The notes under the pieces are model-generated. The model did not search any database, was not told the DNA's origin, and was given only the letters and a program-made list of their open reading frames with translations. Below, piece after piece: positions 2,980-23,080 of a stretch of 64,000 nt of DNA (the stretch's first letter is position 1; the number at the start of each line of letters is the position of its first letter). Source of the DNA: Caldicellulosiruptor diazotrophicus (GTDB lineage: Bacteria > Bacillota > Thermoanaerobacteria > Caldicellulosiruptorales > Caldicellulosiruptoraceae); contig NZ_AP024480.1 in NCBI RefSeq assembly GCF_017347585.1, forward strand, positions 2,519,501 to 2,583,500. Direction: 5' to 3'. The position numbers were made by a program, and so were the translations under genes.

Positions 2980-3007
2980 TTTTATCACCTTTTAAAAAAC
3001 AGATTTG

Positions 3008-3808
3008 TTAAGAAAGTTTTAGATCATCAAGGCTTTTCGCCGTCACAATTGGCTGAAGTTCACTTGAGTCTTTTTCATAATCGCTTGAATCCTTGTAGAA
3101 TATCTCTATATCAACAAACCTCACTTTTCCATTTCCTCTTGAACCCTGCCCGCCAAGGTAATCATCTTCTAATAGCTTCATTGCTTTGATAAACTTTTCA
3201 AGGTAGTATTTCTGGTCATCTTTGCTGTTAACTTCAAATCTGTTTATGACAAATTCTGCTGAAAACTGTACACCTGCAGGAACTCTTTCGCTCTGTCTTG
3301 GATTTGCCTTTGATGTTATTCTATCTATATTGTTCTCAAACTTCACTTCTGTCCACTCAAGGTCAAGGTTCTCTTTCATCTCGTCAGTTATAGAGCTTTC
3401 TATCAGCTTTGCATCGCGAACAATGAGCCTTGTGGGGATGACTGCGTCTGTAAGATCTATCTTTCCACCACTTTTTAAATCATGTGAGCCATGGTTTCTG
3501 CCAAAAAGTCCGCATACAGGACAATTCAAATCATCGCACATGTGAATGCATATCTCTGGTTTACCTTCCCTTTTGACCGACACAACAAGCAAATTATCTC
3601 TTACCTTTCCCTCTGCAAACTCCATAAGAGATCTCATCTTACCCTTGAGAGAAGAACCTGGAATGTAAGGCTTGCCTTCTGCATCTTTCACAACTGCATT
3701 GTCAATTCCGCCAATCTCAAGGCTGTTGTTGCCCTCACCAATGTGAAGACCTGTTACAGCTTTAATCTTGCACTTTATGATGTATTTTCCTTTCAAGATT
3801 ACATCCAT
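3008..3808 (-). CDS. csm3: Csm3, backbone subunit with target-RNA nuclease site
   Basis: This 266-residue subunit forms the helical backbone of the Csm complex along the crRNA. The IDN motif at residues 35-37 contains the Asp (D36) matching the residue that cuts target RNA at 6-nt intervals in studied Csm3 proteins. PYIPGSSLKGKMRS follows, the family signature. GGxGSRGNGKV near residue 225 is the second glycine loop. The cysteines of CDDLNCPVCG fit the structural zinc site seen in Csm3/Cmr4. The start has GGAGGAG nine nt upstream. The catalytic Asp is present, so cleavage activity is expected. Confidence 0.93.
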   Translation of the reverse strand: MDVILKGKYIIKCKIKAVTGLHIGEGNNSLEIGGIDNAVVKDAEGKPYIPGSSLKGKMRSLMEFAEGKVRDNLLVVSVKREGKPEICIHMCDDLNCPVCGLFGRNHGSHDLKSGGKIDLTDAVIPTRLIVRDAKLIESSITDEMKENLDLEWTEVKFENNIDRITSKANPRQSERVPAGVQFSAEFVINRFEVNSKDDQKYYLEKFIKAMKLLEDDYLGGQGSRGNGKVRFVDIEIFYKDSSDYEKDSSELQPIVTAKSLDDLKLS

Positions 3809-3832
3809 GGCAATAGTCTCCTCCTTTTGTGA

Positions 3833-4249
3833 TTATTGCTCTTTTCCGCCATAATACTTGTGATATGCAACAGCGCCTTCAAAAAAGTCTTTAAACCTGC
3901 TCAAAGCATCAGGGCTTTGCAAAGCCACAGGAATTGCTTTGTTAACTATCTCCTGGAAATCTTTTATTTTTGGAAACCTTCCTGCTGTGTATGCAAGCTT
4001 TGCTTTCAAAAGATTCAATTTGTATTTGTAATTTTCATCATCAGGAGAAAGTCTTTTTACCTCTGTGAACACTTTTCTAAGCTGAGTAACAGTAACACCA
4101 CAATCTTTCAAAAGCTGACCTGTCTTTTCTGAAACTTCAGCTAAAACAGTACCATCTTTGTCCTTTGAAGGGTCAATCGCAGTCTGGATCTTGCTCAAAA
4201 TATCATTTTTCAAGCTAACAATCGGATTTACATTCTGTTGCGCTGGCAT
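3833..4249 (-). CDS. csm2: Csm2, small subunit of the type III-A complex
   Basis: This is a 138-residue all-alpha protein between cas10 and csm3, the usual place and size of Csm2 (small subunit, Cas11-like). Helices include LSPDDENYKYKLNLLKAKLAYTA followed by a C-terminal FFEGAVAYHKYYGG, matching the common ending of the family. The start is placed at ATG 4249 because AGAGGAG precedes it by eight nt; the longer frame begins at a TTG without a site. It coats the crRNA/target duplex alongside the Csm3 backbone. Confidence 0.87.
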   Translation of the reverse strand: MPAQQNVNPIVSLKNDILSKIQTAIDPSKDKDGTVLAEVSEKTGQLLKDCGVTVTQLRKVFTEVKRLSPDDENYKYKLNLLKAKLAYTAGRFPKIKDFQEIVNKAIPVALQSPDALSRFKDFFEGAVAYHKYYGGKEQ

Positions 4250-4279
4250 AACAAATTCTCCTCTCCCCAAAATTGATTT

Positions 4280-6754
4280 TTACCTTCTCAGCTCAAGCTC
4301 AGCCCAGCGCGCTGCAAGGTATGAGTGCTTGTACAAAGAATTTGATTTTTTATCAATAATTTTTCGTAAAACATCTTCAAGCTCTTTTGAATACTTCTTA
4401 TACCTATCTTTTAACCTTGCCATGAAATATACAAACCTCCATGATTTGAAAAGCTCATCTTGGGTCTGTGCTATCTTTTTAAGATTGCAAACGGCATAGA
4501 TGCCGTTTATAAGCGCTTTTGAAACGTTTTTGCTACCAATTAAATCTGCAATTGTCTCTTTCAACTTTTCCACATCATCATAATCTTCCCAGCCAACAAA
4601 ATTGCCGCCAAACGCAAGGCAGTCTTTCTTCCTACCATCTTCTCTTTCGTATTCTTTGGCTTTGTCCAGATGATCTCCACACACAATAGCAACCCTGTAA
4701 ATTGGATATTTTTTATCTGGTGCTATTTCAAAGCCCATTGAAAGTGTAATATCTGGATTATGGCATGAAAAGCTTCTAAATTCTGTATAAATTTTGTGTG
4801 CTGTATGAGGTAGCACATCCCACTGACCAAGTATGCAAAAGTCATCCCCACCTGCATAAATAACAACAATATTGTCCTGCTGCTCACTTACAAGCCTGTT
4901 GAAATAGTAGCCGAAAAACAGTGAAAACTCCTCAGATAGAGTCATCACTCTTGAAATTGAACTGTCTTTGCCAAGCCCTTCTTTGAAAATTTTTCCCAGA
5001 TTGTCAACATCACCGCGAACAATTCCCCATGTCTTTATTCCTTTTGAAGAATCTGATATCTCTTCTATTGTTTTCAGACTAACTTCATTTTTAAAAGGTG
5101 CATGTGTTGAAATATCAAGAGCTTCATAAAAATCAATCTCAAATCTCAATTTATTTGATTTATTCCCTTTTTCAATATTTACATTTCTTTCTAACAAGTT
5201 TTCAAGTCGATTTCTGTCAATAACAATTGTACTTGCCATGCTTTCATAGTGGTTTGAAAATAAAATCTTTCTTCCAAATGCCTCAAAAATGTCTTCTACC
5301 CTATCAAAATCCGAAAAGTCCTTTTCTTTCCCCCATGAATCTATGATAAAATAGCTTTTCATCAGTCTGTCGCCAAAGTCAACAAAGCTTTCACAAAATT
5401 CGCAAAAATCAGAATCATCTTGTTTTAGTTTCAGCTCCCTTGAACAATGAGGACATTTTTGTTCATAGTCCTCATGCGGCTCAAAAAACCTTAAATTTTC
5501 CTGTTCAATAACACTTTTGAACTTGGAAATTTTCTTCCTGTAGATTTTCGATGAAACTCTGTCAAAGCAATCTCCAAAATTACCTGCAAAATCGTAAAGG
5601 TCAACTATTTCTGCATCAAGAAGAATGCTAATTGAACCTCTGTGTGCTTCAAATAATAGCCTATCAATCTTTTTCTGATACTGCTCAAGTTTTTCTACAA
5701 AGTATGCAGGCATCAAAAGATAGAAATGCCCTCCGCCATTGAATATAAGGTTACAAATGGGCATTTCCTCTTCTTTTAAAATATATTTTGCAACTGTGTC
5801 AAGAAGAAACGAAATATAAAAAGACTTTGCTTTGAGTGCTTTTAAAGCACCATCCATTTTGGTGTCGAAAACAAAATCCTGTATTCCGGATATATCACCT
5901 TTGACAATACAAAAATATGGATAATCCTCTTGTTTTATTGAATAATCATTGCCCGGCAAAAGTTTTGTGTTCATAGCCTCTAAAATTTTTACTCGTTCAT
6001 TTTCCTGCGAAAACTCTTTTTTAAGCTGCCTGTCAAGACAAAATGCAATTGCAGCAGTTGATTTGCTGTGCGCCCAAAGGGATATGTCAGGCTGCGAATA
6101 GTAAAAAGCAGATGGAATGTTGTATGTGTAAATTCTAAGCAAGTTGTAAATAGCAGTCGCAAAGTCTTCTAAGTCAAATGAACTACCAAAACCATCTCTC
6201 AGAGCATTTACTTTTCTGGAAAACTCTGTCCATAGGTTTTGATAATCTTCTTTTGCATTTGTATTGAAACTATTAGAAGGTGGTTCAACTTCATACCTTT
6301 TTTTCAGAAGCTTATAATAAGGTGTTTTCGTATTTCTCTTTTTTTCATCAAGGCTTATTTGAGACAAAACAGAGATTAAGTACTTTGATTTGTCTTCACC
6401 TGTTTCTTCCTCGACTGCATCCTTTCTGTCGACTTTGGCTGAGATCTTGTCAGCAACACTTATCAAAAACTGCTGGTATGAAGATGGTCTGTGATGATAC
6501 AAAACAAGAGATATGACCGTTTTTAAACTTTCTGGCAAAAAATGTTCGACAAAAAACGCGCTCCACTCCTGATGTCGCGGAGCATACTTTCCTTCTTCTC
6601 TGTAAAATGCTTCATATTCTCTTGAGATGTTCTTTTTAGCATCAGGGTTTTCTGTTCTCATATAAAATTTGCCAATATCGTGCAAGATTGCGCCAAGAAA
6701 AAGAGTATAGTCAAAGTTTTTATCTTCTGGTTGATAAGCATTATAAAAAATCAT
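4280..6754 (-). CDS. cas10: Cas10/Csm1, HD plus GGDD cyclic-oligoadenylate synthase subunit
   Basis: This is the 824-residue large subunit of the type III-A effector. An N-terminal HD domain has HDIGK at residues 25-29 (ssDNase site). The middle contains a four-cysteine zinc ribbon (CPHC...CEFC). The second palm domain has AGGDDF, the GGDD motif that makes cyclic oligoadenylates on target binding. Both motifs are intact, so DNase and second-messenger activities are predicted. The start ATG at 6754 has AAGGTGG nine nt upstream; the open frame extends 18 codons further without a site. It is the first gene of the operon, with a promoter near 6822-6850. Two pieces are duplicated at 18995-19521. 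Confidence 0.95.
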   Translation of the reverse strand: MIFYNAYQPEDKNFDYTLFLGAILHDIGKFYMRTENPDAKKNISREYEAFYREEGKYAPRHQEWSAFFVEHFLPESLKTVISLVLYHHRPSSYQQFLISVADKISAKVDRKDAVEEETGEDKSKYLISVLSQISLDEKKRNTKTPYYKLLKKRYEVEPPSNSFNTNAKEDYQNLWTEFSRKVNALRDGFGSSFDLEDFATAIYNLLRIYTYNIPSAFYYSQPDISLWAHSKSTAAIAFCLDRQLKKEFSQENERVKILEAMNTKLLPGNDYSIKQEDYPYFCIVKGDISGIQDFVFDTKMDGALKALKAKSFYISFLLDTVAKYILKEEEMPICNLIFNGGGHFYLLMPAYFVEKLEQYQKKIDRLLFEAHRGSISILLDAEIVDLYDFAGNFGDCFDRVSSKIYRKKISKFKSVIEQENLRFFEPHEDYEQKCPHCSRELKLKQDDSDFCEFCESFVDFGDRLMKSYFIIDSWGKEKDFSDFDRVEDIFEAFGRKILFSNHYESMASTIVIDRNRLENLLERNVNIEKGNKSNKLRFEIDFYEALDISTHAPFKNEVSLKTIEEISDSSKGIKTWGIVRGDVDNLGKIFKEGLGKDSSISRVMTLSEEFSLFFGYYFNRLVSEQQDNIVVIYAGGDDFCILGQWDVLPHTAHKIYTEFRSFSCHNPDITLSMGFEIAPDKKYPIYRVAIVCGDHLDKAKEYEREDGRKKDCLAFGGNFVGWEDYDDVEKLKETIADLIGSKNVSKALINGIYAVCNLKKIAQTQDELFKSWRFVYFMARLKDRYKKYSKELEDVLRKIIDKKSNSLYKHSYLAARWAELELRR

Positions 6755-6821
6755 TTTTCTTGTCCACCTTCTTTTTTGTTGTGTATTCGACAGATTCAGT
6801 AATAACAATACACTTTATACC

Positions 6822-6850
6822 ATTATACAACAAAATATCTTTGAAGAAAA
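6822..6850 (-). promoter_or_regulatory. Putative promoter of the csm operon
   Basis: On the minus strand a TATAAT (6822-6827) lies upstream of cas10, with a weak TTTTCT 17 nt further upstream. The same element is conserved in the damaged copy of the locus at 19484-19489. The -10 match is exact and the -35 poor. The position relative to the first gene of the operon supports the call. Confidence 0.5.
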
Positions 6851-7155
6851 GATTTACAGGGAAATAATATACCCTTTTTTGATAATTGAAAAGTTCAAAA
6901 AATATGCGAAGTTTTTCCTCCGAGAAAAGGGAAGTTACCTTCTTAAGAATTTTTAAATCTATGAGTACAGAAATATATTTTGCACATTAATCAATGTCAG
7001 TTTCCACTTTTAGAGAGTATCTTATCTGAAAAAAAATTCAAGGTTAATTTTATCATTGTATACTTTAGCAACAAAAAATATGAGGGTTTATTTTTGCAAA
7101 ACCCAGTAAGCAGAGTAGTTTTTCCAACACGCCTTTTTCTATACACAACAACAAA
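6851..7155. other. Gene-free stretch with an ATPase-like remnant
   Basis: No intact gene is seen between the csm promoter and the CARF-HEPN gene. At 6900-6965 the minus strand can be read as KILKKVTSLFSEEKLRIFF. This resembles KILERVTPLFLEAKS of the DUF234-type ATPase fragment at 10680-11024, so it is probably a decayed relative. A related stretch (RIFLELFNYQKR) recurs at about 22400-22440. The remainder shows nothing recognisable. Confidence 0.4.
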
Positions 7156-7183
7156 GTTGTAGCCTCTCCTTTGAGATTGAGTG
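7156..7183 (+). CRISPR. Single degenerate CRISPR repeat
   Basis: Twenty-eight nt beginning GTTGTAGCC and ending GATTGAGTG match the repeats at 22826-22958 with a few changes; the CCCCTTTGGGG core is altered to CTCCTTTGAGA. It lies 17 nt past the end of the CARF-HEPN gene. It looks like the last trace of an array once attached to the csm locus. Confidence 0.55.
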
Positions 7184-7200
7184 AACGGGCATTTTTGTAT

Positions 7201-8529
7201 TTATCTTTTCAGCTCATCTTTTCGCTTTAACATCTTCTCAAAGAGCTCAGATGCTAAATTAAACAAATCATTGAATGCTTTTAAATTTAGCAGATAATTT
7301 TGATTAGTCCGTGGCTCTGAACCGTGTGCTGCTGCATTTCGAACATACTCTAAAGTTCGGTAAATTTCTGCTTCATCCTTATCTTTTATAAGTCTATTTT
7401 TCTCTGGGTCAATTTTGGAATTGTGAATCTCTGTCTTAATTTTTTTTCTGCTTTCTTCTCGCGAATCATAATTCATCACATCTTTTATCCCATACACATC
7501 AGCAAACAATAAAATTATTGCTTCATATAAGAGAATTAAAGCTTTGAGATACTGATTTCGCCTAAAGAAAAACTGGGCTCTTTTGAACATCCTCAGATAC
7601 AGCCTATTCTGCCTGTTCAGTTCTGAGAATTCTTTGAGCAAATAATCTGATATTTCCTCAATATAAAAATTCTCTGACAGCTGTTTTTTGCTTCCCAATT
7701 CCTCTATAATTTTTTCTACTTCACGCCAAGGCTGTCTGTTCATTTCAATCTTGAAATATGTTTCTTCAGTATTTTTAATACCTATACAATCAAGCAGAGA
7801 AGAGAAATATCCTGAATTTTCAAATGTCGACATAGATTCTATGAGCTTTACAGCTTCGTTTACAAACCCAACCTCAATAGCCGGTGAGTAATTCTCTCTG
7901 TGTAGAAAATAATCCTTCATCTCAAATGCTCCATAAAAAATCCTAATGTTGTCAATATTTCTCAAATATTTGGAAAACATTAAAGCATAAGAAAAAACAA
8001 TTGGAATGTATCTAAACCCGTGTGTGCAATCAAAAACTACATTATATTTTTTTTGTGGTTCAAGCTCTTTCAGGATAATATCAAGATAAACCTTAAAATC
8101 TAAAGGTTTGACTCTGTGTAACCTCAAAATTGGCAAAAAATTTTGCAAAGTCATTTCCCATTTCTTTAATATCTCCTCAGAGACGCCTTCTTCTTCGTCT
8201 TTTGCGCTCTCTTGCTCATATACTTTCAGATACAAATCAGATATACTCTCGCTTTGCTGCTCTTCAGGTGGTATTACCATCAAAAGCTCTGACCATGCTG
8301 ACTTGTCAGTTCCAACAACTATAAATTTGTCAATATTGAGCTTTTCAACATCTTTTAAATATTCAAGAAGTCCTATACCAAAGAAGGCTGTCTCTTTTGT
8401 TAAGTATTCGTTTTCTGATTTTGCATTGAAAACATAGCGCGTCTTTTCATATCCCCTAGCTCCATCTCTTCTCTCTCGTCCTTTACCTATGATTGATATT
8501 AAAACCCAGTTTTCCTCTTGTATTTCCAT
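7201..8529 (-). CDS. CARF-HEPN ribonuclease, TM1812/DxTHG (Csx1/Csm6-like) family
   Basis: This 442-residue protein is predicted to be activated by cyclic oligoadenylate from Cas10 and then to cleave RNA non-specifically. The N-terminal CARF region carries FDCTHG around residues 167-173, the DxTHG motif that names the family. The C-terminal HEPN domain has RNAAAH (residues 397-402), an R-X4-H catalytic motif. The start ATG at 8529 is chosen because GGAG lies nine nt upstream; an ATG six nt earlier is too close. It is transcribed toward the csm operon but separated from it by about 400 nt of remnant sequence, so it probably has its own promoter. TATAAT is at 8571-8576. Confidence 0.85.
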   Translation of the reverse strand: MEIQEENWVLISIIGKGRERRDGARGYEKTRYVFNAKSENEYLTKETAFFGIGLLEYLKDVEKLNIDKFIVVGTDKSAWSELLMVIPPEEQQSESISDLYLKVYEQESAKDEEEGVSEEILKKWEMTLQNFLPILRLHRVKPLDFKVYLDIILKELEPQKKYNVVFDCTHGFRYIPIVFSYALMFSKYLRNIDNIRIFYGAFEMKDYFLHRENYSPAIEVGFVNEAVKLIESMSTFENSGYFSSLLDCIGIKNTEETYFKIEMNRQPWREVEKIIEELGSKKQLSENFYIEEISDYLLKEFSELNRQNRLYLRMFKRAQFFFRRNQYLKALILLYEAIILLFADVYGIKDVMNYDSREESRKKIKTEIHNSKIDPEKNRLIKDKDEAEIYRTLEYVRNAAAHGSEPRTNQNYLLNLKAFNDLFNLASELFEKMLKRKDELKR

Positions 8530-8698
8530 AACCATAAACTCCTTTCATCCTAAGATTAACATTATAATACTGCTTCAAATAGTAATAACCAATAAAATTT
8601 TCCCAAAAGCAAAACAAGATAAAAAAGCCAGGAAGATAATAAAGAAGATTTTTGTTCCTGCCGTGGCTTGATTCTTACACAAATTTATAAACATCAAA

Positions 8699-10117
8699 CT
8701 ATTCTATTCTATCTTTCAGCCAGCAGTTGATTACATTAAAATTTGTATTAACTGCATATCTTACAAAAATTGTGCTGTCTTCTGTCCTTATCTCTGTTAT
8801 GTTTCTTTCAAATCCGCTGTGGGCAAAATAATTTCTGTCAATTGGCTCGCCCACCAGCTTTCCAGGATCAATTATCTTGTAAAGTCCTGTCCAGCTACTA
8901 ATATCGTCCATTTGTTCTAATATTTTTTGCGTATTTGATATTTCATTGCTAAGCATAACATAGTTTGTAGGTACTCTGAATGTTGAATAAATCTCAAAAA
9001 AGTTTCTCTTTAGAAAGTTTAGGTCAATTCCTGTATCCTGACAGAACATAGTTATATTGTGCTTTTCCAGCATATTTACAATCCCAATGTAAAATCCCAA
9101 ACTCAAAATTGCATCTATGTAAGCTCTTTTATTGAGGTTGGGAGACTTTTGATAATTGCTGCAAAGCTGACCCTTGGCATGTTCAATTAGCTTGAAAATC
9201 TCTTCTTTTATCTCATCTATAGAGTGGTAGTGCTGATAGTAAAGATACAAAGGAACGTTATTTTTTATGGCAGAAAACAAAAGGCAAAACATTTCTATCT
9301 TCTCTCTCAATTTCTTTCTTTTTTCTCTCACCTGCTGTTTGAGCTTTGCAGCCTCTGACCCTTTTGCACCGTTATTTGGATCTGGATATATATTTCTTAA
9401 AAATGAAAAGTTGTACTCTGCTGCCTCTTTTCGTTTAATTGGAGATGAGAAAAATGCCGTAAATCTTTGCTGCTGAATGTGTATCTCAAAACTTTTTGCT
9501 GAACTTCCTATAATCGGGTCAGAAAAAGTGATGCATATCTTTGGCACTTTGCTTTCATCAAGCCAATTCATAAGATTTGAGAAAACAGCAAAGTGTCTTG
9601 CAGCCTCCAAAATTGCAGAAATATAAATGTTGTGTCCGCTTGAAATGTCAAGGTAAAGTTCTTCAAGTTCACCTTTCAAGTGTCTTTCTATCATATCAAA
9701 AAGAATCTCAAGTACAATATCATCATAGCTTGTATCAAGAAATGTTCCCATATACTCACCAAGAGAGTGAACAATAAGCTTTTCGTCCCTGCACCTTTCA
9801 AGTTCTATTTTATCTATAAACTCATCTGGATTTTTCAGGTAGTCTGATGGATCTTTAAAGATGGCTGCAATTTCTTCTTTTAAATTGGTTGGCTGAATGT
9901 ACTCAGGAAGTCTACTGTTAAGAACAATGCTAACAGGATATATAACAACTGTTTTTGCCTCACAGCCTCTTTTGCGAAGAAAATCTCGCAACACAGTTGA
10001 AGAAAGTTCAGACTCTCCGCTCTCCTCAACTATCTCACCATTAAAATTTTTAATATAAAATTTTTTAATAGCTATTGCAGGATTATCCAGTCTCCCAACT
10101 TGGTATATTACTTTCAT
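8699..10117 (-). CDS. CARF-HEPN ribonuclease, MJ1666-like Csx1 family
   Basis: This is a second, clearly different predicted cyclic-oligoadenylate effector of 472 residues. The CARF part has LDISSGHN at 156-163, the counterpart of the DxTHG/N signature in MJ1666-type Csx1 proteins. A basic helical segment (about 255-275) links to a HEPN domain with RNYFAH at 428-433 (R-X4-H). GGAG precedes the ATG by about 8-10 nt. It is 170 nt from the other CARF-HEPN gene on the same strand. The two proteins differ in length, linker and motif spelling, so this is not a simple tandem duplication. Confidence 0.8.
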   Translation of the reverse strand: MKVIYQVGRLDNPAIAIKKFYIKNFNGEIVEESGESELSSTVLRDFLRKRGCEAKTVVIYPVSIVLNSRLPEYIQPTNLKEEIAAIFKDPSDYLKNPDEFIDKIELERCRDEKLIVHSLGEYMGTFLDTSYDDIVLEILFDMIERHLKGELEELYLDISSGHNIYISAILEAARHFAVFSNLMNWLDESKVPKICITFSDPIIGSSAKSFEIHIQQQRFTAFFSSPIKRKEAAEYNFSFLRNIYPDPNNGAKGSEAAKLKQQVREKRKKLREKIEMFCLLFSAIKNNVPLYLYYQHYHSIDEIKEEIFKLIEHAKGQLCSNYQKSPNLNKRAYIDAILSLGFYIGIVNMLEKHNITMFCQDTGIDLNFLKRNFFEIYSTFRVPTNYVMLSNEISNTQKILEQMDDISSWTGLYKIIDPGKLVGEPIDRNYFAHSGFERNITEIRTEDSTIFVRYAVNTNFNVINCWLKDRIE

Positions 10118-11096: not shown

Positions 11097-11846
11097 TTAT
11101 GTTAGCAAGATAAAAGAAACATTGTCATTGAAATTTCTCAGATAAAATCTTTTTTGAAATTCCATGCAAAAATCATCAGAATAAAAAATTTCTGGTATTT
11201 CTTTTTCAAATACATCCCAGAACCCATCACTACATATGATGAACCTATCTTCATCAATAATTTCTGTCTCATTTCTATAAATTTGAACCTCTGTTCGATA
11301 ATTATCTGCTATTATTGCAGAAGTTAAAGTATGCTTTTTAGAATGAGTCTTTGCCTCATCCACAGTTATGTAGCCACTTGAGACAAGCTCTTCAACCACA
11401 GTATGGTCTTTGGTTAATCTAATTGCTCTTGTTCCAAGCAATCTATAAACTCTGCAATCGCCTACATTGAAAACCTGAACTTTGTTGTCAACAATCAAGA
11501 TCCCTGCAATCGTACATCCCATTTCAAAACTGTTTGGATTTGTCTGCGCATAATTTTCTAATTCATCTCTTGCTTTTTTAATTGCATCTTCAATAAAAAG
11601 CTCTTTTTTGATAATATCTTCTTTATAACTTTGCAAAACTTCTAAAACCATTTTTGAGGCCAACTCACCTTTATTGTTTCCTCCTATACCATCTGCAACA
11701 GCAAGAAAAATATTTTTGTCATTAATATATATACTCTCACATTTTTCCATATCAGTATTGCTTATAATTTTCTCAGAAATTAACAAAGCATCTTCGTTTG
11801 TGTTTCTCAAATTCCCTCTATTCGTAAAATAAAAAACTTTATACAT
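11097..11846 (-). CDS. PP2C-family protein serine/threonine phosphatase
   Basis: This 249-residue soluble phosphatase has the PPM motifs in order: RNTNEDA near the N-terminus, VADGIGG (metal-binding Asp), VGDCRVYR, CSDGFWD and DNVSFIL at the end. The metal-binding aspartates are therefore present. AGGAG precedes the ATG by eight nt. It is the last gene of the six-gene operon, 24 nt after the FHA gene. It is the natural antagonist of the kinase encoded first in the same operon, probably resetting FHA-read phosphothreonines. The family is certain; the substrate is inferred. Confidence 0.9.
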   Translation of the reverse strand: MYKVFYFTNRGNLRNTNEDALLISEKIISNTDMEKCESIYINDKNIFLAVADGIGGNNKGELASKMVLEVLQSYKEDIIKKELFIEDAIKKARDELENYAQTNPNSFEMGCTIAGILIVDNKVQVFNVGDCRVYRLLGTRAIRLTKDHTVVEELVSSGYITVDEAKTHSKKHTLTSAIIADNYRTEVQIYRNETEIIDEDRFIICSDGFWDVFEKEIPEIFYSDDFCMEFQKRFYLRNFNDNVSFILLT

Positions 11847-11870
11847 GTTTACAACTCCTATCTGGTTTTT

Positions 11871-12356
11871 TTACTGTAACTCATCTACTGTAAGTTCTAA
11901 TGATAACGAAAGAGATATCCTGTCACCTTTTTTGATTACATCTTTACCTTTTATCCTCCTGCCATTTATATAAACTCCATTTGTGCTATTTAAATCCTCA
12001 ACATACCAGGTACCTGCCTGTTTGAAAAATCTTGCATGTCTTCTTGAAACAGTTTTATATACTTCCAAATATTCTTTTCCTTTTTCATGTCTACCTACCA
12101 CATCGCCACTAAAAACCTCTAATACAAAATTATTCCCCCTCAAAACGATTTTAGAAACTTCAACCATTGTTCTATCATCGTAAGACTCTTTTTTAAAAGA
12201 TTCTTTTCTTTCTATCCCTTCAGTCTTCTTAGCTTCTCTGACTGCACTATCCCCAGTTACAGGCACATTTATTATATCTGCCATACATTTGATGCAGATT
12301 ATTTCATCAGGAGGATTTTGCCAATTACAGTTTGGACATATCTTATATCTCTCCAT
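11871..12356 (-). CDS. Zinc-ribbon and FHA domain protein
   Basis: This 161-residue adaptor has two domains. Residues 7-24 form a zinc ribbon (CPNC...CIKC). Residues about 70-160 form an FHA domain with GRHEKGKEYLEV, SRRHARF and LNSTNGVYINGRRI, the conserved phosphothreonine-binding loops. Acidic and charged residues link the two. It overlaps the radical SAM gene by 14 nt. FHA domains bind phosphothreonine peptides, so it likely reads phosphorylation made by the operon's kinase. The partner is not visible from sequence. Confidence 0.88.
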   Translation of the reverse strand: MERYKICPNCNWQNPPDEIICIKCMADIINVPVTGDSAVREAKKTEGIERKESFKKESYDDRTMVEVSKIVLRGNNFVLEVFSGDVVGRHEKGKEYLEVYKTVSRRHARFFKQAGTWYVEDLNSTNGVYINGRRIKGKDVIKKGDRISLSLSLELTVDELQ

Positions 12357-12927
12357 TTATTAACACCTCAGTATCTTTTTGGTAGGGTATGCCTATTATA
12401 ACTAATTTATCTTTCTGATTAATAATCTGGAGAACTCTTTCTTTTTTCTTTTTTATCCAGAGTGAATAATCACTGCTCAAAGACTTATTAAAAAGGAAAA
12501 ATCGTTGATTTTCTGAGCCTTTCCAAATCAATTCACTTTCAAGTCCTTCTATAAAAGGGGAATCCACTAATGCATCTATTAGCTTCAAAATATCTTTATG
12601 TTTATTTAAAAGGTATTCATATGTGTATCCAGTATAAACAAGAATGTCATCAAAAAAGTCTCTTATAGAATTTAAAAGACTCTGCAGGGGGACATGCTGA
12701 TCAAATGGCTCCCCACCACTTATTGTTAGTTTTTTGCAACCAAAACTCTTCAGGACATTAGCAACTTCTTCTATTTTAATTGCTCTGCTTTTATCAAATT
12801 CCCATGTATGTAAAGACATGCATCCTTTACATCTTATTGAGCATCCCTGCAGCCAAATACCTGTTCTTTTACCAGGTCCAAGTGTGTAAACAGGATAATG
12901 TATAATATTAACCAACAACTCTTCCAT
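12343..12927 (-). CDS. NrdG-like radical SAM protein (4Fe-4S activating-enzyme type)
   Basis: This 194-residue protein has the motif QGCSIRCKGC with C29, C33 and C36 (CX3CX2C, binding the 4Fe-4S cluster that cleaves SAM). GKRTGIWLQGC before it and SGGEPFDQH at 70-78 are typical of anaerobic ribonucleotide reductase or other glycyl-radical activases. The start ATG at 12927 has AGGTGGG about seven nt upstream and overlaps the AAA+ gene by 20 nt. The window holds no glycyl-radical enzyme or class III NrdD beside it. Its place among kinase, FHA and phosphatase genes makes an ordinary activase role doubtful. Its role here is unknown. Confidence 0.82.
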   Translation of the reverse strand: MEELLVNIIHYPVYTLGPGKRTGIWLQGCSIRCKGCMSLHTWEFDKSRAIKIEEVANVLKSFGCKKLTISGGEPFDQHVPLQSLLNSIRDFFDDILVYTGYTYEYLLNKHKDILKLIDALVDSPFIEGLESELIWKGSENQRFFLFNKSLSSDYSLWIKKKKERVLQIINQKDKLVIIGIPYQKDTEVLINGEI

Positions 12928-14734
12928 TAAGTTCCCACCTGTCATCTTTTTTAACCAATTCATTAACCACCACAGTACTTTCTGTTTGAGGAAATAATTT
13001 AAACAAAAGCTCTGAGAGAGGATTTATAAACAAAAGTTCAAGTTTATTACCTATTCCCCTTCCACCCATAGACAGGTCTTTTACAATTTCTTCATATATC
13101 TTTTGCTGCACATTATCTGATATTTCAAGCTTTATCCCCTTGTCTTCTTCAAGTTTTATCCTAACATTATTCAGCATTTTATCCAATATTTTTTTTACAT
13201 TTTCATTGCGTATAAAATCAAATACAATGATGTTTTCTCCTATACGATTCAAAATTTCAGGTCTTGCAATCTTGAATGTAAAATATTCTTTTATAGCTTC
13301 AGTCAAAATCTTCTCAATTTCATCATAACTCATTCCTGGTGAGATGCGCTGTATTTTTTTGCCATCCGACGTCACTTCGTAAACACCAAGGTTAGATGTA
13401 AATATTATTAGAGTTTCAGAAAAGTATACAGTTTCTCCCCTGCCAGAGGTAAGTCTGCCATCGTCAAGTATTTGCAAAAAAATATCAAGTATTTTTGGAT
13501 GAGCTTTTTCTATCTCATCAAAGAGAATTACTGAAAAAGGATTTTGTTTTACGGCATTTGTCAACTCACCACCAACATCATATCCCACATATCCGGGTGG
13601 CGCACCAATGAGTCTTTGGTCAGAATGTTCGTGTGAAAACTCTGACATATCGAATCTTATATAATGATGTTCACTTCCAAATATTAATTCTGTTATAGCT
13701 TTTGCAAGTTCAGTCTTCCCCACACCGGTTGGTCCTGCAAAAAACAAAACACCTTTAGGTCTGTTTGAATATCGCGAAAATTGTGAACCCGAAAGATTGA
13801 AAAAAGCTCTTCTCAATATAGTAGCTGCTTGTTTTATAGCTTTTTCTTGCCCCATAACTCTTCTTTTTAAAAATTCCTCTGCGTTATTAAGCCTTTCTTT
13901 ATCTATTTTTGCCCATGGATTTTCGCTGACACCAACTTTATATCTCCTTGTTGCTTCTCCAATCTCTCTTGCACTCAGATTTTCTCTCTTTGACAAAACT
14001 ACTATAGAAAGCATTTCCCTTGCAAACATGCCAGACGTCAGATTTACAAAATCTTTTATCAATTCTTCCTTTTTGCTTTCAGGCAAACTTGTCCACTCAT
14101 CCATTCGCGGCAAAAGAGCTTGTGCTATCCATCTTCTTATCTCAAAATCAGGTTTTGGAATAGGAATTGTTCTTATTCTTGGATTTTCAACAGTATACCA
14201 TGGCGGCAAATCATTTTCTTTTTCTACAAGGAAAATTATTGGATTATAAGAAGGTGGATTACCTTTCTGGTTTATGTTAATAGAGAGCTTGAATGTGTGG
14301 TAAAGAAAATCTGGTAAATCTCTACTGCAAGAAATCTCTGGCAATCTCGATGAAAAGTTAATAACAACAGCTGCCTTCTCATCACCTGTAATAAATTTTT
14401 CTATAGTTTCATACGCATCAAGCAAAGTCACAACTTTATCACCAATTTTTCTTCCAGAGAGGTTTGTAAATATTCCTTCATCTCCTTTTAATAGTCTAAA
14501 CCCTTCAAGAGGAACATACTCTATTACAATCTTGTAGCTATCATATGTAGTAAGCAAATGAGCAATAAATTGAGTTATATTCATGGGTATATATTTTTCA
14601 CCTTGTGGAAATGGAAAAAGGTCATAAATATTCCCAAAAAGAACAAACTGACATGTTATAGAACAAAATCTTAAAAGCTCTTTTGCAAACTTTGGTATGC
14701 CTTTGATTTTTTCAGGTATTATGTCGTTTGCCAT
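12908..14734 (-). CDS. ClpB-like AAA+ ATPase with a degenerate first module
   Basis: The C-terminal half of this 608-residue protein is a complete Clp/Hsp100 D2-type AAA+ module. It has Walker A GPTGVGKT (334-341), pore loop GAPPGYVGY (377-385), Walker B VILFDEIEKAH (402-412), sensor-1 TSN, arginine finger region RPEILNRI and sensor-2 GGRG. The first about 270 residues have the strand pattern of an AAA-like module (FVLFGNIYDLF, AAVVINFSS, NPIIFLVE) but no Walker A, and no ClpB N-domain or M-domain. It starts three nt after the coiled-coil gene. It probably remodels proteins; the client, perhaps an operon partner, is unknown. Confidence 0.87.
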   Translation of the reverse strand: MANDIIPEKIKGIPKFAKELLRFCSITCQFVLFGNIYDLFPFPQGEKYIPMNITQFIAHLLTTYDSYKIVIEYVPLEGFRLLKGDEGIFTNLSGRKIGDKVVTLLDAYETIEKFITGDEKAAVVINFSSRLPEISCSRDLPDFLYHTFKLSININQKGNPPSYNPIIFLVEKENDLPPWYTVENPRIRTIPIPKPDFEIRRWIAQALLPRMDEWTSLPESKKEELIKDFVNLTSGMFAREMLSIVVLSKRENLSAREIGEATRRYKVGVSENPWAKIDKERLNNAEEFLKRRVMGQEKAIKQAATILRRAFFNLSGSQFSRYSNRPKGVLFFAGPTGVGKTELAKAITELIFGSEHHYIRFDMSEFSHEHSDQRLIGAPPGYVGYDVGGELTNAVKQNPFSVILFDEIEKAHPKILDIFLQILDDGRLTSGRGETVYFSETLIIFTSNLGVYEVTSDGKKIQRISPGMSYDEIEKILTEAIKEYFTFKIARPEILNRIGENIIVFDFIRNENVKKILDKMLNNVRIKLEEDKGIKLEISDNVQQKIYEEIVKDLSMGGRGIGNKLELLFINPLSELLFKLFPQTESTVVVNELVKKDDRWELNGRVVG

Positions 14735-14737
14735 ACT

Positions 14738-16282
14738 TTACACACTCCTTTGTCTCTGTTGTATATTAATGTTTTTGATATTTTGATGTTTTTTGCTGAC
14801 TTCCATTTTTTCTCTTTTCATGTAATAAAATCTCATTTCAGGTTCAATCCTCTGTTTGTCTTCAATTACTATCCCTTCCTGACTTAAAAGCTGTTTAATT
14901 TTGTCATAATCGGAACACCACTTTTTTGCTATAGAGATATCCTTATGTTTTTCATATTCACTTAAACTTCTTTCATCTTCAACATACCTTACAAACATAA
15001 TTTTTATTCCGTCATTTTCATATTTTATTCTCAACATATAATCATCTCCAAAAGGTGTTCTAATTTCTACTATTTCACCCTTTGATAATTTTTCCATCAA
15101 ACCTTCTTCTACAACAGAATAACCTAACTCTCTTATTTTTCCAATAAACTTATCCACTGAAGCCTTTCTGATTTTCTGTTCCAAAACCTGTTTTCTTCTT
15201 TCAAGTAGTCTTTTTACAAAATCATCAACTGCTTCTTTATACAATACTCTCATTTGCATTAAATCATTAAATTCACTTTTCATACCTACCTCTTCTGCAA
15301 ATGTTTCGTACATTTTTAAATCATTTTTTAATACTTCAGTTTGAATATATATTGTTCTTGCCTTTATGTAACTGAACTTGAGGTCTTCAAAAATCAGTTC
15401 TACTCTTGATATATCATCTGTTTCTTTTGCCTCTTGTATTAACTGTTTCTTTTCTTCAGCCAACTTGAGATTTATATTTTTTAACTTATCAAATATAACT
15501 TCAATCTTTTCTAATATCTCTTCCTTTTTTGTAACCTCGGTGTTCTCTTCTTTAGTAATTCTTTCTACTTCAATTTGATCTTTTATTTCAAAAGTTTTTT
15601 GCTCAAGCAATTTTTGTTTTATCCTTCTTATAATACCATGATACTCACTTGGTACTTCTTTTAAATACTCCTTTAGTATTTCAATATCTGAAGGATTATC
15701 AAATGTATACTTTTCTATAGTGTTTAGAATTTCGGTATATTGTTTCATCTTTTTATAATATCTATTATTACATAAATCTTTTGGGAATATATTGAGATAC
15801 TGGTTTATAACATTTATATTTGCATTGGGATTTTTAAATTCTTTCTCTAAATTTTCAAATAATTCTATAATTTTTTGTATCTTTTTTTTGGTCTCTAAAG
15901 CACCATCTGGTAATACATCTATAAAAGCTTTTAATGTTTGGATATCTAAATTATCTGTCAGCTCTGTTTTAACTAAAATAATATACTCCTTTGTTTTTCG
16001 AACTACATCCTGCAGTTTTGCAATTTGCGCGTCAACCCACTGAGTATGGTTTTCACTTAACAAAATTTCCATTGTGTATTTTTCCAAAAAATCTTTCTTG
16101 CATTTTTCAAGATTTTCTATTAAATCCTTACCTAAAAAGCATGAATCAATATTTTTTAGCATGTCTTTTACATGGCTAATAGAATTATCTATTTGGTTTT
16201 TAAAAAACTCTTTGTTTTCTCTAAGAGTTTCAGTCAAATTTTTATTGCCGACAAAGGTCCAACAATAAGTGAAGCTACTCAT
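14738..16282 (-). CDS. Coiled-coil protein of unknown function
   Basis: This 514-residue, highly charged, mostly helical protein has no signal peptide or membrane segment. Long Lys/Glu-rich heptad-like stretches occupy about residues 20-120 and 225-380. A small mixed region around 385-440 (LGYSVVEEG, IVEIRTPFGDDYMLRIKY) looks like a compact alpha/beta domain. The C-terminus is Gln/Arg/Lys-rich. I do not recognise the family. It lies between the kinase and the ATPase, 31 nt and 3 nt from them, so it is a likely structural scaffold or client of the system. Confidence 0.8.
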   Translation of the reverse strand: MSSFTYCWTFVGNKNLTETLRENKEFFKNQIDNSISHVKDMLKNIDSCFLGKDLIENLEKCKKDFLEKYTMEILLSENHTQWVDAQIAKLQDVVRKTKEYIILVKTELTDNLDIQTLKAFIDVLPDGALETKKKIQKIIELFENLEKEFKNPNANINVINQYLNIFPKDLCNNRYYKKMKQYTEILNTIEKYTFDNPSDIEILKEYLKEVPSEYHGIIRRIKQKLLEQKTFEIKDQIEVERITKEENTEVTKKEEILEKIEVIFDKLKNINLKLAEEKKQLIQEAKETDDISRVELIFEDLKFSYIKARTIYIQTEVLKNDLKMYETFAEEVGMKSEFNDLMQMRVLYKEAVDDFVKRLLERRKQVLEQKIRKASVDKFIGKIRELGYSVVEEGLMEKLSKGEIVEIRTPFGDDYMLRIKYENDGIKIMFVRYVEDERSLSEYEKHKDISIAKKWCSDYDKIKQLLSQEGIVIEDKQRIEPEMRFYYMKREKMEVSKKHQNIKNINIQQRQRSV

Positions 16283-16313
16283 ACTATCATCCTCTTAATT
16301 TTTAAATTTATAT

Positions 16314-18389
16314 TTAATCATTATAACGTCTTAAAATTTTGAATAATACTGAAATAACAGATAAAACAAAATAAAAATACACTGAGTTAACTAATGTCTT
16401 GTTTGCTGTGCCATTAATGAAATATTCATAAGATGAAATGTAAGAAAAATAGAACATAACTGCACAAACATACAAAATTGATAATCTTGCAATTTTAATC
16501 TTGGTAAAATGAAAATATTTTTTATATAAATAATATGATAATAATGATATAACAATCAATACAAACATATAATAATTTCTACTGTTGTCAAAATATTTTT
16601 TAACTATGACATCGTAAAAATACTGATCTGTGGTAAAATATAATATCAACCTTGTTGCTATCAAACCCACAAGGTAAAATATAGACACTTTATATATACT
16701 TTTTAATGTTTTTTTAATATCTCTTAAAAGCTTTTTTCTGCGAACTGCTTGATGTAATTTGTAACCTTTTATTATCCAATCGACTGCTTCAGACACTGAA
16801 AATTTTGCCTTACACCATTCAATTATTTCATTTGCTATCCTTTCTAAAATTTCACTATCTTTTGTTCCTTTAAAAACCATTTCTTCAACTTCATTAATGC
16901 TAAATCCCAAATTTATAAATTTTGATGCTAATATTGGCTTTACTTTTATTGTTTTCCATCTGACAGCTTCAATTATGCTAACATTATTTTTTTTCCATTC
17001 TTCGGCTTCGTCAGCACTAAATCCTTTTTCAGCCCAATTCTTCGCTTCATCAACATCAAATCCATATTTCTTCCATTTTTGAGCATCTATCTCTGAGAAA
17101 CCATTCATAATATAATGAAAAATACCCTTTTCAACAAAATCAAATATTTTATTCTTATCTATTCCTTTTTCTAATAATTCAAGTATATCAAAAGCAGTAA
17201 TACCTTTTCTTTGCCACTCGTAAGCATTTTTGGGACTGAGTCCAAGGTTGTCAAATATAGTAGATTCTTTTGGGCTAAAACTATAATTATACCATTCCAA
17301 TGCAATATTGCCTTTCCTAAAACCAGCTAAAACCCATTCCTTCATATCTTTTGCAGAAAATCCTTTTTCCCAAAAAATTTTCGCCTCTTGCGGACTGAGG
17401 TTTGTTTCAACACCTGCTTTTACCCACTCGGAGTCAGAAGAAAATCCAACACTATTCCATTCCTTAACATCATAATTTTTGCTCTCCTCATTATATTCTT
17501 CATAGAACACAGGTACGTTTTTCACATTATTTAACCACTGCTTGATCTGTTCATATCCCCATCTTTTTTTGTAGTTCCTCGTAAGAAGTCCTTTCAACAA
17601 AATTTTGTATCTTTCAGAAATATCTTCTGGAATTTGTACCCCTTGGGTAGCAAAAGTATTTATAATAACAGCCTCTGATAAATTAGAGAAAGGATTCTTA
17701 CCTTTTAAAACTTCATATATTACTATTCCTAAATGCCACCAATCAATTTCTTTGCCAAAATAACCTGAAATTTCTTCTGGAGCCATATAAGAATATGTCC
17801 CCTTCAATGTAGTGAAAACCTTAGAAAACTCTTCAGACATAGCAAAAGATATCCCAAAATCAATCAGTACAAGGTCCAATGACTTTAAATCTCTTATAAG
17901 AATATTGGAAGGTTTCAAGTCTCTATGAACAATTCCCTTTTTATGCAGTGCTTCAATAGCTTCTGCAATTTCTTTTACTACAATATCAACTTTGTCTTTT
18001 ACCTTTTCTATGTTATCTTTTAAACTACCATATTGAATATATTCCATTATCTCAAAATATCTGCCGGTCTGTTCATCTTTACCCACTTCAAAAATTGTTA
18101 CAACATGTTCTTTTAGTTCAAAAGATATCTTTTTTAATCTTTCTAATACTTCAATTTTGGGGGTAACACCCTTTCTGTATAGCTTTAAAAACATCTTATT
18201 ACCATTATTTTCTATAACGTAAGCATCGCATTCTCCGCCTTTGGCTGGTAGCTCCTCTACGATGTTGTAATTTCTAAATGTTGTCATGGTTAATTTTTCT
18301 TTTTCGTTAAGAATATCTGTCACTCTCACAGTAGCATCTTGTATATTTTTTTTATCCCACCAGCTCTCTTTCACTGTTTTTTCATCCAT
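16314..18389 (-). CDS. Membrane-anchored Ser/Thr protein kinase with W/GF repeats
   Basis: The 691-residue protein begins with a Hanks-type kinase domain: FLKLY lysine at 69, HRDLKPSN at 155-162, DFG at 177-179 and APE at 203-205. All catalytic residues are seen. From about 310 to 560 come many short repeats of the form W-x3-GF-(S/D)-x2-(E/D)-A-x2-W (for example KNWAEKGFSADEAEEWKK). About four hydrophobic segments in the last 120 residues predict membrane anchoring. The ATG at 18389 is preferred, with GGAAGGG seven nt upstream. First gene of the operon. The repeats are probably a sensing or docking region. Confidence 0.88.
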   Translation of the reverse strand: MDEKTVKESWWDKKNIQDATVRVTDILNEKEKLTMTTFRNYNIVEELPAKGGECDAYVIENNGNKMFLKLYRKGVTPKIEVLERLKKISFELKEHVVTIFEVGKDEQTGRYFEIMEYIQYGSLKDNIEKVKDKVDIVVKEIAEAIEALHKKGIVHRDLKPSNILIRDLKSLDLVLIDFGISFAMSEEFSKVFTTLKGTYSYMAPEEISGYFGKEIDWWHLGIVIYEVLKGKNPFSNLSEAVIINTFATQGVQIPEDISERYKILLKGLLTRNYKKRWGYEQIKQWLNNVKNVPVFYEEYNEESKNYDVKEWNSVGFSSDSEWVKAGVETNLSPQEAKIFWEKGFSAKDMKEWVLAGFRKGNIALEWYNYSFSPKESTIFDNLGLSPKNAYEWQRKGITAFDILELLEKGIDKNKIFDFVEKGIFHYIMNGFSEIDAQKWKKYGFDVDEAKNWAEKGFSADEAEEWKKNNVSIIEAVRWKTIKVKPILASKFINLGFSINEVEEMVFKGTKDSEILERIANEIIEWCKAKFSVSEAVDWIIKGYKLHQAVRRKKLLRDIKKTLKSIYKVSIFYLVGLIATRLILYFTTDQYFYDVIVKKYFDNSRNYYMFVLIVISLLSYYLYKKYFHFTKIKIARLSILYVCAVMFYFSYISSYEYFINGTANKTLVNSVYFYFVLSVISVLFKILRRYND

Positions 18390-18422
18390 AATTAATCCCT
18401 TCCTTGTTCTGTGCTTGATCAT

Positions 18423-18490
18423 TTATATTTGGTAAAATATAGCATTAACAATGCTTTTTCCTATTAACGGGTTTTTCTCCTTAAGTTTAA
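18423..18490 (-). promoter_or_regulatory. Promoter region of the six-gene operon with a short palindrome
   Basis: The 68 nt between the kinase gene and the csm-locus copy contain GCATTAACAATGC (18442-18454), a palindrome with 5-bp arms. Beside it on the minus strand are TATATT and TATAAA, which could serve as -10 boxes. This is where the operon promoter should be. The palindrome may be an operator. No firm -35 is seen. Confidence 0.35.
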
Positions 18491-18999
18491 CTTTCTTACT
18501 ACTTATAATTTACCCTCTATGAAAAGCTTACAAAAGTCAATTTTTCTGCGAAGAAAATTGGTTTGCAGTCTGCACAAGCTGAATAGCAGAGTTTTACAAA
18601 ATCTACTTTACACAAAACAACTGACAAAACATATCAAGAAGCTCTGTTGAGGCAAATACTTCGTATCTACCAAAATACTCAATTCTTGAAGGAACCACAT
18701 GCTGTTTTTTCAAGCCATCTTTTATGACAAAGAAAAACCTCTGTTCTTCTGGATGTGTTCCAAACCTTTGGTAGTAGATGTTCAAAAGCTGCCTTCTTAG
18801 CATCTCTGAAAAAATCTCTGGCTGTCTGTCATATTCTAAGCAAGCACCATCTTTTTGAACAAACACACCGCTGAGCAAATTTCCACTTGTCTTTGGCTGC
18901 TGCGTCATGCATGAAATTCTCTTCAAGTAAATGCCATCAAACAAGCTATTTAAACTTTCATAAATCTTTAATACGTTTTGTGTAACAAGCTCTAAAGAA
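18491..18999 (-). pseudogene. Duplicated 3' part of the Cas6-like gene and its downstream flank
   Basis: This stretch aligns almost base for base with 81-590 (constant offset 18410). It includes about 110 nt downstream of the gene. A 113-codon frame ending at 18603 encodes the same C-terminus with only a few substitutions. The first about 80 codons are absent: at about 18995 the sequence switches to cas10. Confidence 0.92.
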
Positions 19000-19328
19000 G
19001 AATGCTAATTGAACCTCTGTGTGCTTCAAATAATAGCCTATCAATCTTTTTCTGATACTGCTCAAGTTTCTCTACAAAGTATGCAGGCATCAATAGATAG
19101 AAATGCCATCCGCCATTGAATATAAGGTTACAAATGGGTATTTCCTCTTCTTTTAAAATGTATTTTGCAACTGTGTCAAGAAGAAACGAAATATAAAAAG
19201 ACTTTGCCTTGAGTGCTTTTAAAGCACCATCTATTTTGGTGTCAAAAACAAAATCCTGTATTCCGGATATATCACCTTTGACAATACAAAAATATGGATA
19301 ATCCCCTTGTTTTATTGAATAATTATTG
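18995..19328 (-). pseudogene. Internal cas10 fragment, duplicated
   Basis: The segment matches 5618-5951 of cas10 at constant offset 13377 with scattered substitutions. It encodes part of the first palm region but is out of frame with both neighbours, so it cannot make a fusion. Its left edge joins the Cas6-like copy through a few nt of shared AAGAAG-type sequence. Confidence 0.92.
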
Positions 19329-19330
19329 TT

Positions 19331-19521
19331 TTGCCAATATCGTGCAAGATTGCGCCAAGAAAAAGAGTATAGTCAAAGTTTTTATCTTCTGGTTGATGAG
19401 CATTATAAAAAATCATCTTTCTTGTCCACCTTCTTTTTTGTTGTGTATTCGACAGATTCAGTAATAACAATACACTTTATACCATTATACAACAAAATAT
19501 CTTTGAAGAAAATATTTACAG
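19331..19521 (-). pseudogene. Duplicated cas10 5' end with the csm promoter
   Basis: The segment matches 6669-6859 at offset 12662. It covers the cas10 ribosome binding site, its ATG (here 19416), the first codons including HDIG and the upstream TATAAT (19484-19489). The reading frame ends at the junction with the internal fragment. A promoter copy could still fire into the relic and toward the kinase operon. Confidence 0.9.
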
Positions 19522-19530
19522 GCAAAAACT

Positions 19531-19881
19531 TTACTTAAGTTCAAACAAATTATCTTTAATAATTATCCTTGCACAATCAAGAACTTTTTTCTTGAAATCA
19601 TTAAAACCGGATATTCCATTTGCTATGCCAAAATTGATATGGCCATTTTTTACATGCGCACCAATAAAATAAAAGCCAGCAAATGACTTTTCAAGGTTGA
19701 CAGAAAACAGTATCTCACCTGTTGTTTTATCTTTGCCAATAAGTCTGAAAGGATAGTTAATAAGTGGAAGGTTCTCTTCCTTTGCTTGCAGGAAAATCCC
19801 TTCTATTTGCTCAGTAATTTGTACTTTTTCAACCTCTGAGGCTTGTGAAAGATAGTTTTCTAAGTAAGGGTCCCATATCAT
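19531..19881 (-). CDS. Hypothetical protein, 116 residues
   Basis: I do not recognise this small soluble protein. It begins MIWDPYLENYLSQ, has an alpha/beta pattern with strands YPFRLIG, EILFSVN and AGFYFIGAHV, and ends in a helix (KKVLDCARIIIKD). It starts 28 nt after the stop of the split gene at 19910-22303, so the two formed one operon. That partner is now disrupted, so this gene may be poorly expressed. Confidence 0.6.
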   Translation of the reverse strand: MIWDPYLENYLSQASEVEKVQITEQIEGIFLQAKEENLPLINYPFRLIGKDKTTGEILFSVNLEKSFAGFYFIGAHVKNGHINFGIANGISGFNDFKKKVLDCARIIIKDNLFELK

Positions 19882-22825: not shown

Positions 22826-23080
22826 GTTGTAGCTTCCCCTTTGGGGATTGAGAGACATCAACTTTAGATACAGATTGCACTATATTATTAATTTGTAGCC
22901 TCCCCTTTGGGGATTGAGAGAGGAGGGGGTTTGTAGCCTTCCTTTTGGGGACTGAGAGGAAGAGGGAGTAAAACATAACAAAATATATGATTATGTGTAT
23001 AAGAATCCTTTTGTTAATTTAGAGGGAGCTCTACCTTTGGTGTTTGAGGTATAGGAAAGGTTCCCTTTGGGCTTTGAAAT
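22826..23080 (+). CRISPR. Decayed CRISPR array
   Basis: Two well matched repeats at 22826-22854 and 22892-22920 (TTGTAGC, CCCCTTTGGGG, ATTGAGAG) flank one 37-nt spacer. A third, more changed repeat at 22930-22958 follows after only nine nt. Two weaker relics occur at 23027-23047 and about 23059-23079. The repeat has the short CCCC/GGGG stem and ATTGA-type 3' handle usual for type I and III arrays. A related single repeat lies at 7156. No leader or cas1/cas2 is nearby. Confidence 0.65.

Follow-up and report, generated by a model that had tools for sequence, protein, structure and literature searches.

What does a membrane-bound Ser/Thr kinase have to do with a Clp-type unfoldase and an NrdG-like radical S-adenosylmethionine (SAM) protein? 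The question is raised by a minus-strand operon of six genes at 11097-18389 of the Caldicellulosiruptor diazotrophicus DNA analysed here, a stretch of 64,000 nt that we call the window. In our opinion the operon would be a single co-inherited machine in which a phosphothreonine switch governs the pair formed by the unfoldase and the radical SAM protein, and we give this reading about an even chance of being correct.

The first gene encodes the kinase (16314..18389, 691 aa; Pfam Pkinase, 8e-39). It is followed by a coil protein (14738..16282, 514 aa), which belongs to no Pfam or NCBIfam family and is described below from an alignment of 46 homologues and an AlphaFold2 (AF2) model, and by a Clp-type AAA+ unfoldase (12908..14734, 608 aa; NCBIfam ClpB, 1.4e-81 over the C-terminal half). 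Then come the radical SAM protein (12343..12963, 206 aa; Fer4_12, 1.1e-29), which with 97.8 bits to TIGR02491 stays under the NrdG cut-off of 126.1 bits, an adaptor made of a zinc ribbon and an FHA domain (11871..12356, 161 aa; FHA, 2.9e-16), and a PP2C phosphatase (11097..11846, 249 aa; PP2C, 5.1e-14). Pfam and NCBIfam back every one of these names except that of the coil protein. From kinase to PP2C the successive spacings are 31, 3, -56, -14 and 24 nt. The overlap of 56 nt between ATPase and radical SAM gene shrinks to 20 nt if the latter starts at the Met of MEELLV; the overlap of 14 nt is that of the radical SAM and FHA genes. The kinase frame opens at 18422 in the list of open reading frames, but the alternative start at 18389 is the likelier one, because a relative starts at MDERT. 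The preliminary description of this DNA had claimed six minus-strand genes that overlap or lie no more than 31 nt apart, and reading frames, spacing and domains all agree with it. The operon is intact here and, at 68-96% identity, in three further members of the genus, thus in 4 of 12 genus genomes. An Rfam search returned no match.

Is this gene set more than an accident of one strain? A profile search with the radical SAM protein gave 426 relatives in named genomes, 80 of which were kept, and neighbours were counted in the 47 loci that have at least 5 kb on each flank. There the ATPase is found 43 times, the coil protein and the kinase 38 times each, and PP2C 11 times. Counted strictly, with zinc ribbons on kinases left aside, about 30 of 86 loci have a true FHA protein. 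Of the module genes, 251 lie on the strand of the radical SAM gene and two on the opposite one. In 65 of 68 loci the genes of ATPase and radical SAM protein are next to each other, and while the order of the remaining genes varies widely, the membership is constant.

Since this search had started from the radical SAM protein, a scan was also run from the ATPase, by comparing its domain 1 with 398 Bacillota genomes at a threshold above the reach of ordinary Clp proteins. Eleven genomes match, of which four belong to this genus and seven to other genera. All seven loci of the other genera include the radical SAM gene in the cluster and six include FHA (the contig of the seventh stops inside the ATPase); the kinase is present in all four of them that offer 20 kb of sequence. 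ATPase matches on plasmids of Rhizobium, Aristaeella, Leisingera and Caballeronia likewise carry the radical SAM gene. Pairwise distances of ATPase, radical SAM protein, coil protein and kinase correlate with r = 0.79-0.93, a level reached by none of 500 Mantel shuffles. Altogether the set spans about ten phyla (Bacillota, Pseudomonadota, Nitrospirota, Synergistota, Spirochaetota, Aquificota, Bacteroidota, Verrucomicrobiota and candidate phyla). The genes co-occur far above chance, and the conserved neighbourhood predicted in the preliminary description is found from two search directions, so it is not one strain's accident. The invariant core consists of ATPase, radical SAM protein, coil protein and kinase, and that FHA and PP2C belong to one branch.

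Phage records contain no recognisable full-length homologue, and the matches there are mostly partial and Clp-like. Some individual loci have features of their own. Tandem duplicates within the operon, either two kinases or two coil proteins, occur in L061, L064 and L040. On the Aristaeella plasmid (L035, 4176-22038) a DUF4011 helicase-nuclease, two kinases, FHA, radical SAM, ATPase and PP2C genes form one run. On the Leisingera plasmid (L036, 4024-14426) a Mokosh-like helicase, a PIN-domain protein and a hypothetical protein precede the pair of ATPase and radical SAM protein.

What kind of motor is the ATPase? Its AF2 model (predicted local distance difference test score, pLDDT, 89) aligns in Foldseek with ClpC, ClpA and ClpB over about 600 columns, with a best E of 8.5e-34, and it shares with them the two-domain fold, the intact second ring and the pore loop. 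Unlike them, it has a first ring without Walker A, no Pfam ClpN match and no ClpP loop. The "dead first module" noticed earlier is correct for the entire family, as Walker A is missing from domain 1 in every one of 68 homologues. In domain 2 of the same 68 sequences Walker A and B, the pore loop GYVGY, sensor 1, the Arg finger and sensor 2 are kept. The ClpP-docking loop is absent from 67 of them, the ATPase of the window included. Based on these motifs, the protein should be a non-proteolytic threading motor. It is not a ClpB disaggregase with two active rings, scoring 275 bits against the TIGR03346 cut-off of 1232, and it is also far below the ClpV1 cut-off (223.6 vs 884.95 bits).

The radical SAM protein could in principle be a plain activase of some glycyl-radical enzyme, standing next to the other genes by coincidence. 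Indeed, NrdG is its best family, it has the NrdG-like motifs GPGxR, QGC, CxxxCxxC, TW and GSxNQ, and NrdD is present in the genome. We nevertheless regard this as very improbable, and in our opinion it is already largely refuted. The pyruvate formate-lyase activating enzyme (PFL-AE) holds its substrate glycine with Asp16 and Asn38 (PMC9326890). In the protein of the window CxxxCxxC, GGEP and GSxNQ are intact, but Leu precedes GPG and Ser stands at the Asn38 position. Across 85 sequences, in an alignment to PFL-AE that rests on the GPG and CxxxCxxC motifs, the Asp16 position is Leu in all 85 and the Asn38 position is Ser, Ala or Thr in 82 and Asn in two. Moreover, NrdD and an NrdG2 that scores above the cut-off occur in all 12 genus genomes searched, whereas the module occurs in four, and the glycyl-radical domain PF01228 occurs in none of the 12. 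The loss of both glycine-holding residues, together with NrdD and NrdG2 in all 12 genomes, argues that the protein is not a needed NrdG and that a glycyl product is unlikely. Given the adjacency to the ATPase reported above, coincidental neighbours are hard to defend as well. The protein thus has the radical SAM core and most motifs in common with NrdG and PFL-AE, and it differs from them in the replaced glycine anchors, in its sub-threshold NrdG score and in having an AAA+ protein as genomic partner. That no glycyl-radical partner is encoded nearby, as had been stated, is supported.

Genes of the same radical SAM subfamily were also seen in two settings that have no ATPase. In L048, L052 and L053 the gene adjoins those of a membrane protein and a short lipoprotein-like protein, and in two genomes (L046, L051) it directly follows that of a Mur-ligase-like protein.

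The coil protein had been described merely as a coiled-coil protein. This label falls short of what is a family in its own right, whose members all start with Met-Ser and share a conserved domain at the C-terminus. Its homologues are only 11-31% identical to the protein of the window, and yet all 46 aligned sequences, whose starts were placed with the help of the alignment, begin with Met-Ser, commonly as MSGP; G387, D448 and C456 are invariant, and Y388 and W455 nearly so. The AF2 model (pLDDT 84) has a helical middle and a small C-terminal alpha/beta sheet domain; the N-terminal strand may lie against the latter. The nearest folds to this domain are the AMPK alpha C-terminal and KA1 domains, at VIA-align Z of about 6-8, scores that allow chance. 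Because Foldseek found nothing significant for the coil protein, and because the pLDDT of the N-terminal strand is below 50, the KA1-like fold is a lead only. A match to Csx1/Csm6 was taken as coil similarity, as Pfam finds no CARF or HEPN domain. Next to an NrdG-like enzyme, the pair G387-Y388 together with the invariant C456 is suggestive of a glycyl-radical site; however, the RVxGY context is lacking, the glycine sits in a helix-to-strand turn of the model and the enzyme has lost its glycine anchors, so a radical there is a remote option.

How might such a core be controlled? The kinase of the window retains the VAIK Lys, HRD, DFG and APE, and no helicase is fused to it. The glycine loop is replaced by a family motif, PxxGxEAD, which reads PAKGGECD here. 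The protein consists of an N-terminal tail, the kinase domain, W-rich repeats that are not common to its relatives, and C-terminal hydrophobic segments from residue 576 onwards; many stand-alone kinases of the module carry such segments. According to the conservation analysis the metal-binding Asp residues of PP2C are intact. The only other PP2C of the genome adjoins a PrkC-type kinase. The phosphothreonine pocket of the FHA protein (GR, SRxH and N) is intact and conserved. The proposal that kinase, FHA protein and PP2C form a set that would write, read and erase phosphothreonine is supported.

T-x-x-acidic sites agree with the known ligands of FHA domains. The motif T[IVLM]x[ED] occurs 32 times in the N-terminal tails of 20 kinases from FHA loci, where composition shuffles give 3.7 ± 1.9 and not one out of 2000 came as high; it is present in 15 of the 20 tails, for example as DKTIVE or ERTVVE, and an independent Bacillota tail has QQTRRE in tandem. 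In loci that lack FHA, the kinase itself mostly bears zinc ribbons of the CPxC type, which resemble the ribbon of the FHA protein. The simplest reading of this exchange is that the FHA protein would bring its ribbon to the phosphorylated kinase, and that the other branches made the join permanent.

The ATPase tree contains three variants, an FHA type, a betaproteobacterial type and a helicase-fused type, and the kinase tree matches it in outline. The ATPase of the window belongs to the FHA-type group, its nearest rows coming from Spirochaetota and Calescibacteriota with up to 64% identity. The betaproteobacterial variant has the order coil protein, ATPase, radical SAM protein and kinase, without FHA or PP2C. 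The helicase-fused variant has a single origin in the ATPase tree (support 100/100); its kinase forms one protein with DUF4011, an SF1 helicase and an MTES_1575 nuclease, and none of the 12 loci has FHA or PP2C. The fused kinase is a pseudokinase, as the VAIK Lys is replaced by Thr in all cases (LTLY) and the Asp of DFG is gone in most. The same partner families accompany these pseudokinases in L034, L038, L082, L095, L100, L103, L114 and L116. Given that the sisters of this group in the ATPase tree, the two Verrucomicrobiota loci L084 and L117, still combine FHA with a kinase of active type, the line that leads to the helicase-fused group has probably lost phosphosignalling.

We therefore have a core of Ser/Thr kinase, coil protein with its Met-Ser start, unfoldase with a relic first ring and NrdG-like radical SAM enzyme, and for the FHA branch we would propose the following scheme. 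The kinase would sense a signal and phosphorylate itself on the Thr motifs of the N-terminal tail. The zinc-ribbon and FHA protein would dock on the phosphorylated tail, which would tie the ribbon to the kinase for as long as the phosphate is there and no longer, and PP2C would reset the switch. The assembled complex would then license the unfoldase, whose single active ring may thread a partner, most likely the coil protein or its cargo. The radical SAM enzyme would be a dedicated partner of the unfoldase, probably modifying the stretch of protein that the unfoldase exposes. A still more specific version, in which the unfoldase opens a protein to let the radical SAM enzyme work on a buried stretch, phosphothreonine docking of the zinc-ribbon adaptor switches the pairing on, and a permanent fusion took the place of the switch once the kinase had become a pseudokinase joined to a helicase-nuclease, is speculative and in our judgement unlikely as a whole.

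Several observations weigh against the scheme. Members of the same radical SAM subfamily lie beside unrelated genes, without the ATPase (L046, L048, L051-L053); therefore the substrate need not be a protein of the module. Betaproteobacteria have the module without FHA and PP2C, and therefore the core can do without the switch. The motif of the tails is a degenerate one, with just one match (DEKTVKES) in the kinase tail of the window. Enrichment of phospho-motifs was also looked for in the linkers of the FHA proteins and none was found (5 matches, 4.8 expected). Finally, the distance correlations given above in part reflect species descent.

What would the machine be for? Phosphothreonine-gated remodelling is the most likely role, and defence is plausible. 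The case for defence begins with the surroundings of the operon. Downstream of it, as context only, the minus strand carries type III-A CRISPR (clustered regularly interspaced short palindromic repeats) genes identified by PADLOC, namely Cas6, Csm5, Csm4, Csm3 and Cas10, as well as two CARF-HEPN proteins (193..10117). Just upstream of the kinase lies a remnant of such a Cas6-csm-Cas10 locus (18490..19534, no strand assigned). The preliminary description had mentioned a ruined CRISPR copy, and it is real: the remnant consists of three direct-repeat pieces of 300, 300 and 205 nt, 97% identical to 80-379, 5618-5917 and 6668-6872 and in that order. In G003 and G007 intact csm genes lie just upstream of the kinase and on its strand, and in G002 the 20 kb that were read show no csm gene. 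Three of the four module-bearing members of the genus thus share a linkage to type III-A CRISPR. Elsewhere such linkage is rare; one locus of Persephonella (L041) has Cmr1- and Cas10-like genes downstream of the radical SAM and FHA genes.

One may thus imagine a system of anti-phage or genome-conflict defence, with the kinase as sensor of infection and with the unfoldase and the radical SAM enzyme arming an effector, in one branch the fused helicase-nuclease. This would name a role rather than another mechanism, and it overlaps with the phosphothreonine-switched machine. Besides the CRISPR linkage, the fusion of kinase, DUF4011, SF1 helicase and MTES_1575 matches the PADLOC candidates PDC-S37, Hhe and Mokosh MkoA, the Aristaeella operon includes a DUF4011 helicase, and the spread is patchy (11 of 398 Bacillota, 4 of 12 genus genomes). 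DUF4011 and radical SAM genes also flank a defence hotspot of Pseudomonas aeruginosa (PMC10250203); however, the genes on its flanks belong to the core of every P. aeruginosa isolate, which is unlike typical defence cargo. The 105 nearest flanking genes at other loci are mostly ordinary (MCP, MFS etc.) with few defence matches, and no general enrichment of the kind expected in defence islands was seen among them, although no matched control was run. Further, no DUF4011 helicase was found in this genus, and no PADLOC system's models match the module as a set, the matches being scattered and general (mad6, PD-T4-6, PDC-M37B, DolB, PDC-M21C). On balance we consider defence possible but doubtful.

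The other role to be weighed is a stress or envelope response without any part in conflict, which would steer assembly and disassembly of a coil-protein complex in the manner of threonine phosphorylation in the type VI secretion system (T6SS). There the same four activities come together in PpkA, PppA, Fha and ClpV (PMC5995506, PMC3953482). In the module, too, a kinase, a PP2C, an FHA reader and a ClpB-family ATPase are encoded together, and as in T6SS they would serve a single assembly. The hydrophobic C-termini of many stand-alone kinases and the loss of the ClpP loop from 67 of 68 ATPases would fit such a role. On the other hand, no sheath or other T6SS gene turned up among the module neighbours in the scans made: TssB/TssC, TssL/TssM and Hcp/VgrG are absent from the six module proteins and from the top-25 family lists of the 105 neighbours (the rest of the window and of the genome was not searched). 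The module also differs in its dead first ring, in an ATPase too far under the cut-off to be counted as ClpV, and in the added coil and radical SAM proteins, the latter without a T6SS counterpart. By this analogy, a stress or envelope role deserves tentative consideration, at somewhat less than even probability.

Has the system been seen before? The preliminary description knew of no characterised system with this combination. As to function this stands, but parts of it had been noted: the pair of DUF4011 and radical SAM genes at the hotspot (PMC10250203), and a pseudokinase variant in P. aeruginosa, the DLHK operon, to which a 2025 review gives one sentence (PMC12599244). By that description the DLHK operon appears to match the helicase-fused branch, seen here in L034, L082, L095, L114 and others. 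The kinase of the window differs from it in being of active type, membrane-bound and unfused, with FHA and PP2C present. The section of the review on DLHK draws no link to FHA-type operons and gives no function, and no report that does either for DLHK-type pseudokinase operons was found in the open-access literature. GAP1-N2 and FtsH-ternary conflict systems include operons that mix kinases, PP2C, chaperone-like proteins or a radical SAM gene, and the passages on them in PMC7159879 present no operon with the gene set of the module; Pfam finds no vWA or GAP1 domain in the six module proteins. Because the gene set fits no characterised kind, we take the module to be new as a system, its pseudokinase variant and parts having been seen before. 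In the open-access literature that could be searched we found no description of the system, of its branches or of the proposed switch.

In our opinion the operon deserves attention as part of a gene set that is widespread over many phyla, present in P. aeruginosa too by the description in the review (PMC12599244), and uncharacterised as to function. The pseudokinase operon noted there is now linked to operons with active kinases, which makes the regulatory logic readable from gene loss and fusion. The analysis further suggests that an unfoldase and radical SAM chemistry are paired, and names specific residues. We know of no other case of such a pairing.

Some minor features of the window remain to be mentioned. 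Beside the type III-A locus lie two adjacent and different CARF-HEPN (Csx1-like) proteins (7201-8535 and 8699-10117). A fragment of a DUF234 ATPase is found at 10743-11024, and a relative of 463 aa is encoded close to the operon in G003 (L155). The region 20131-21805 encodes TnpB- and TnpA-like proteins, as in an IS200/IS605-type element. Three repeats of 29 nt (TTGTAGC...GAGAG), with spacings of 66 and 38, lie at 22827-22959 and are possibly the end of a CRISPR array.

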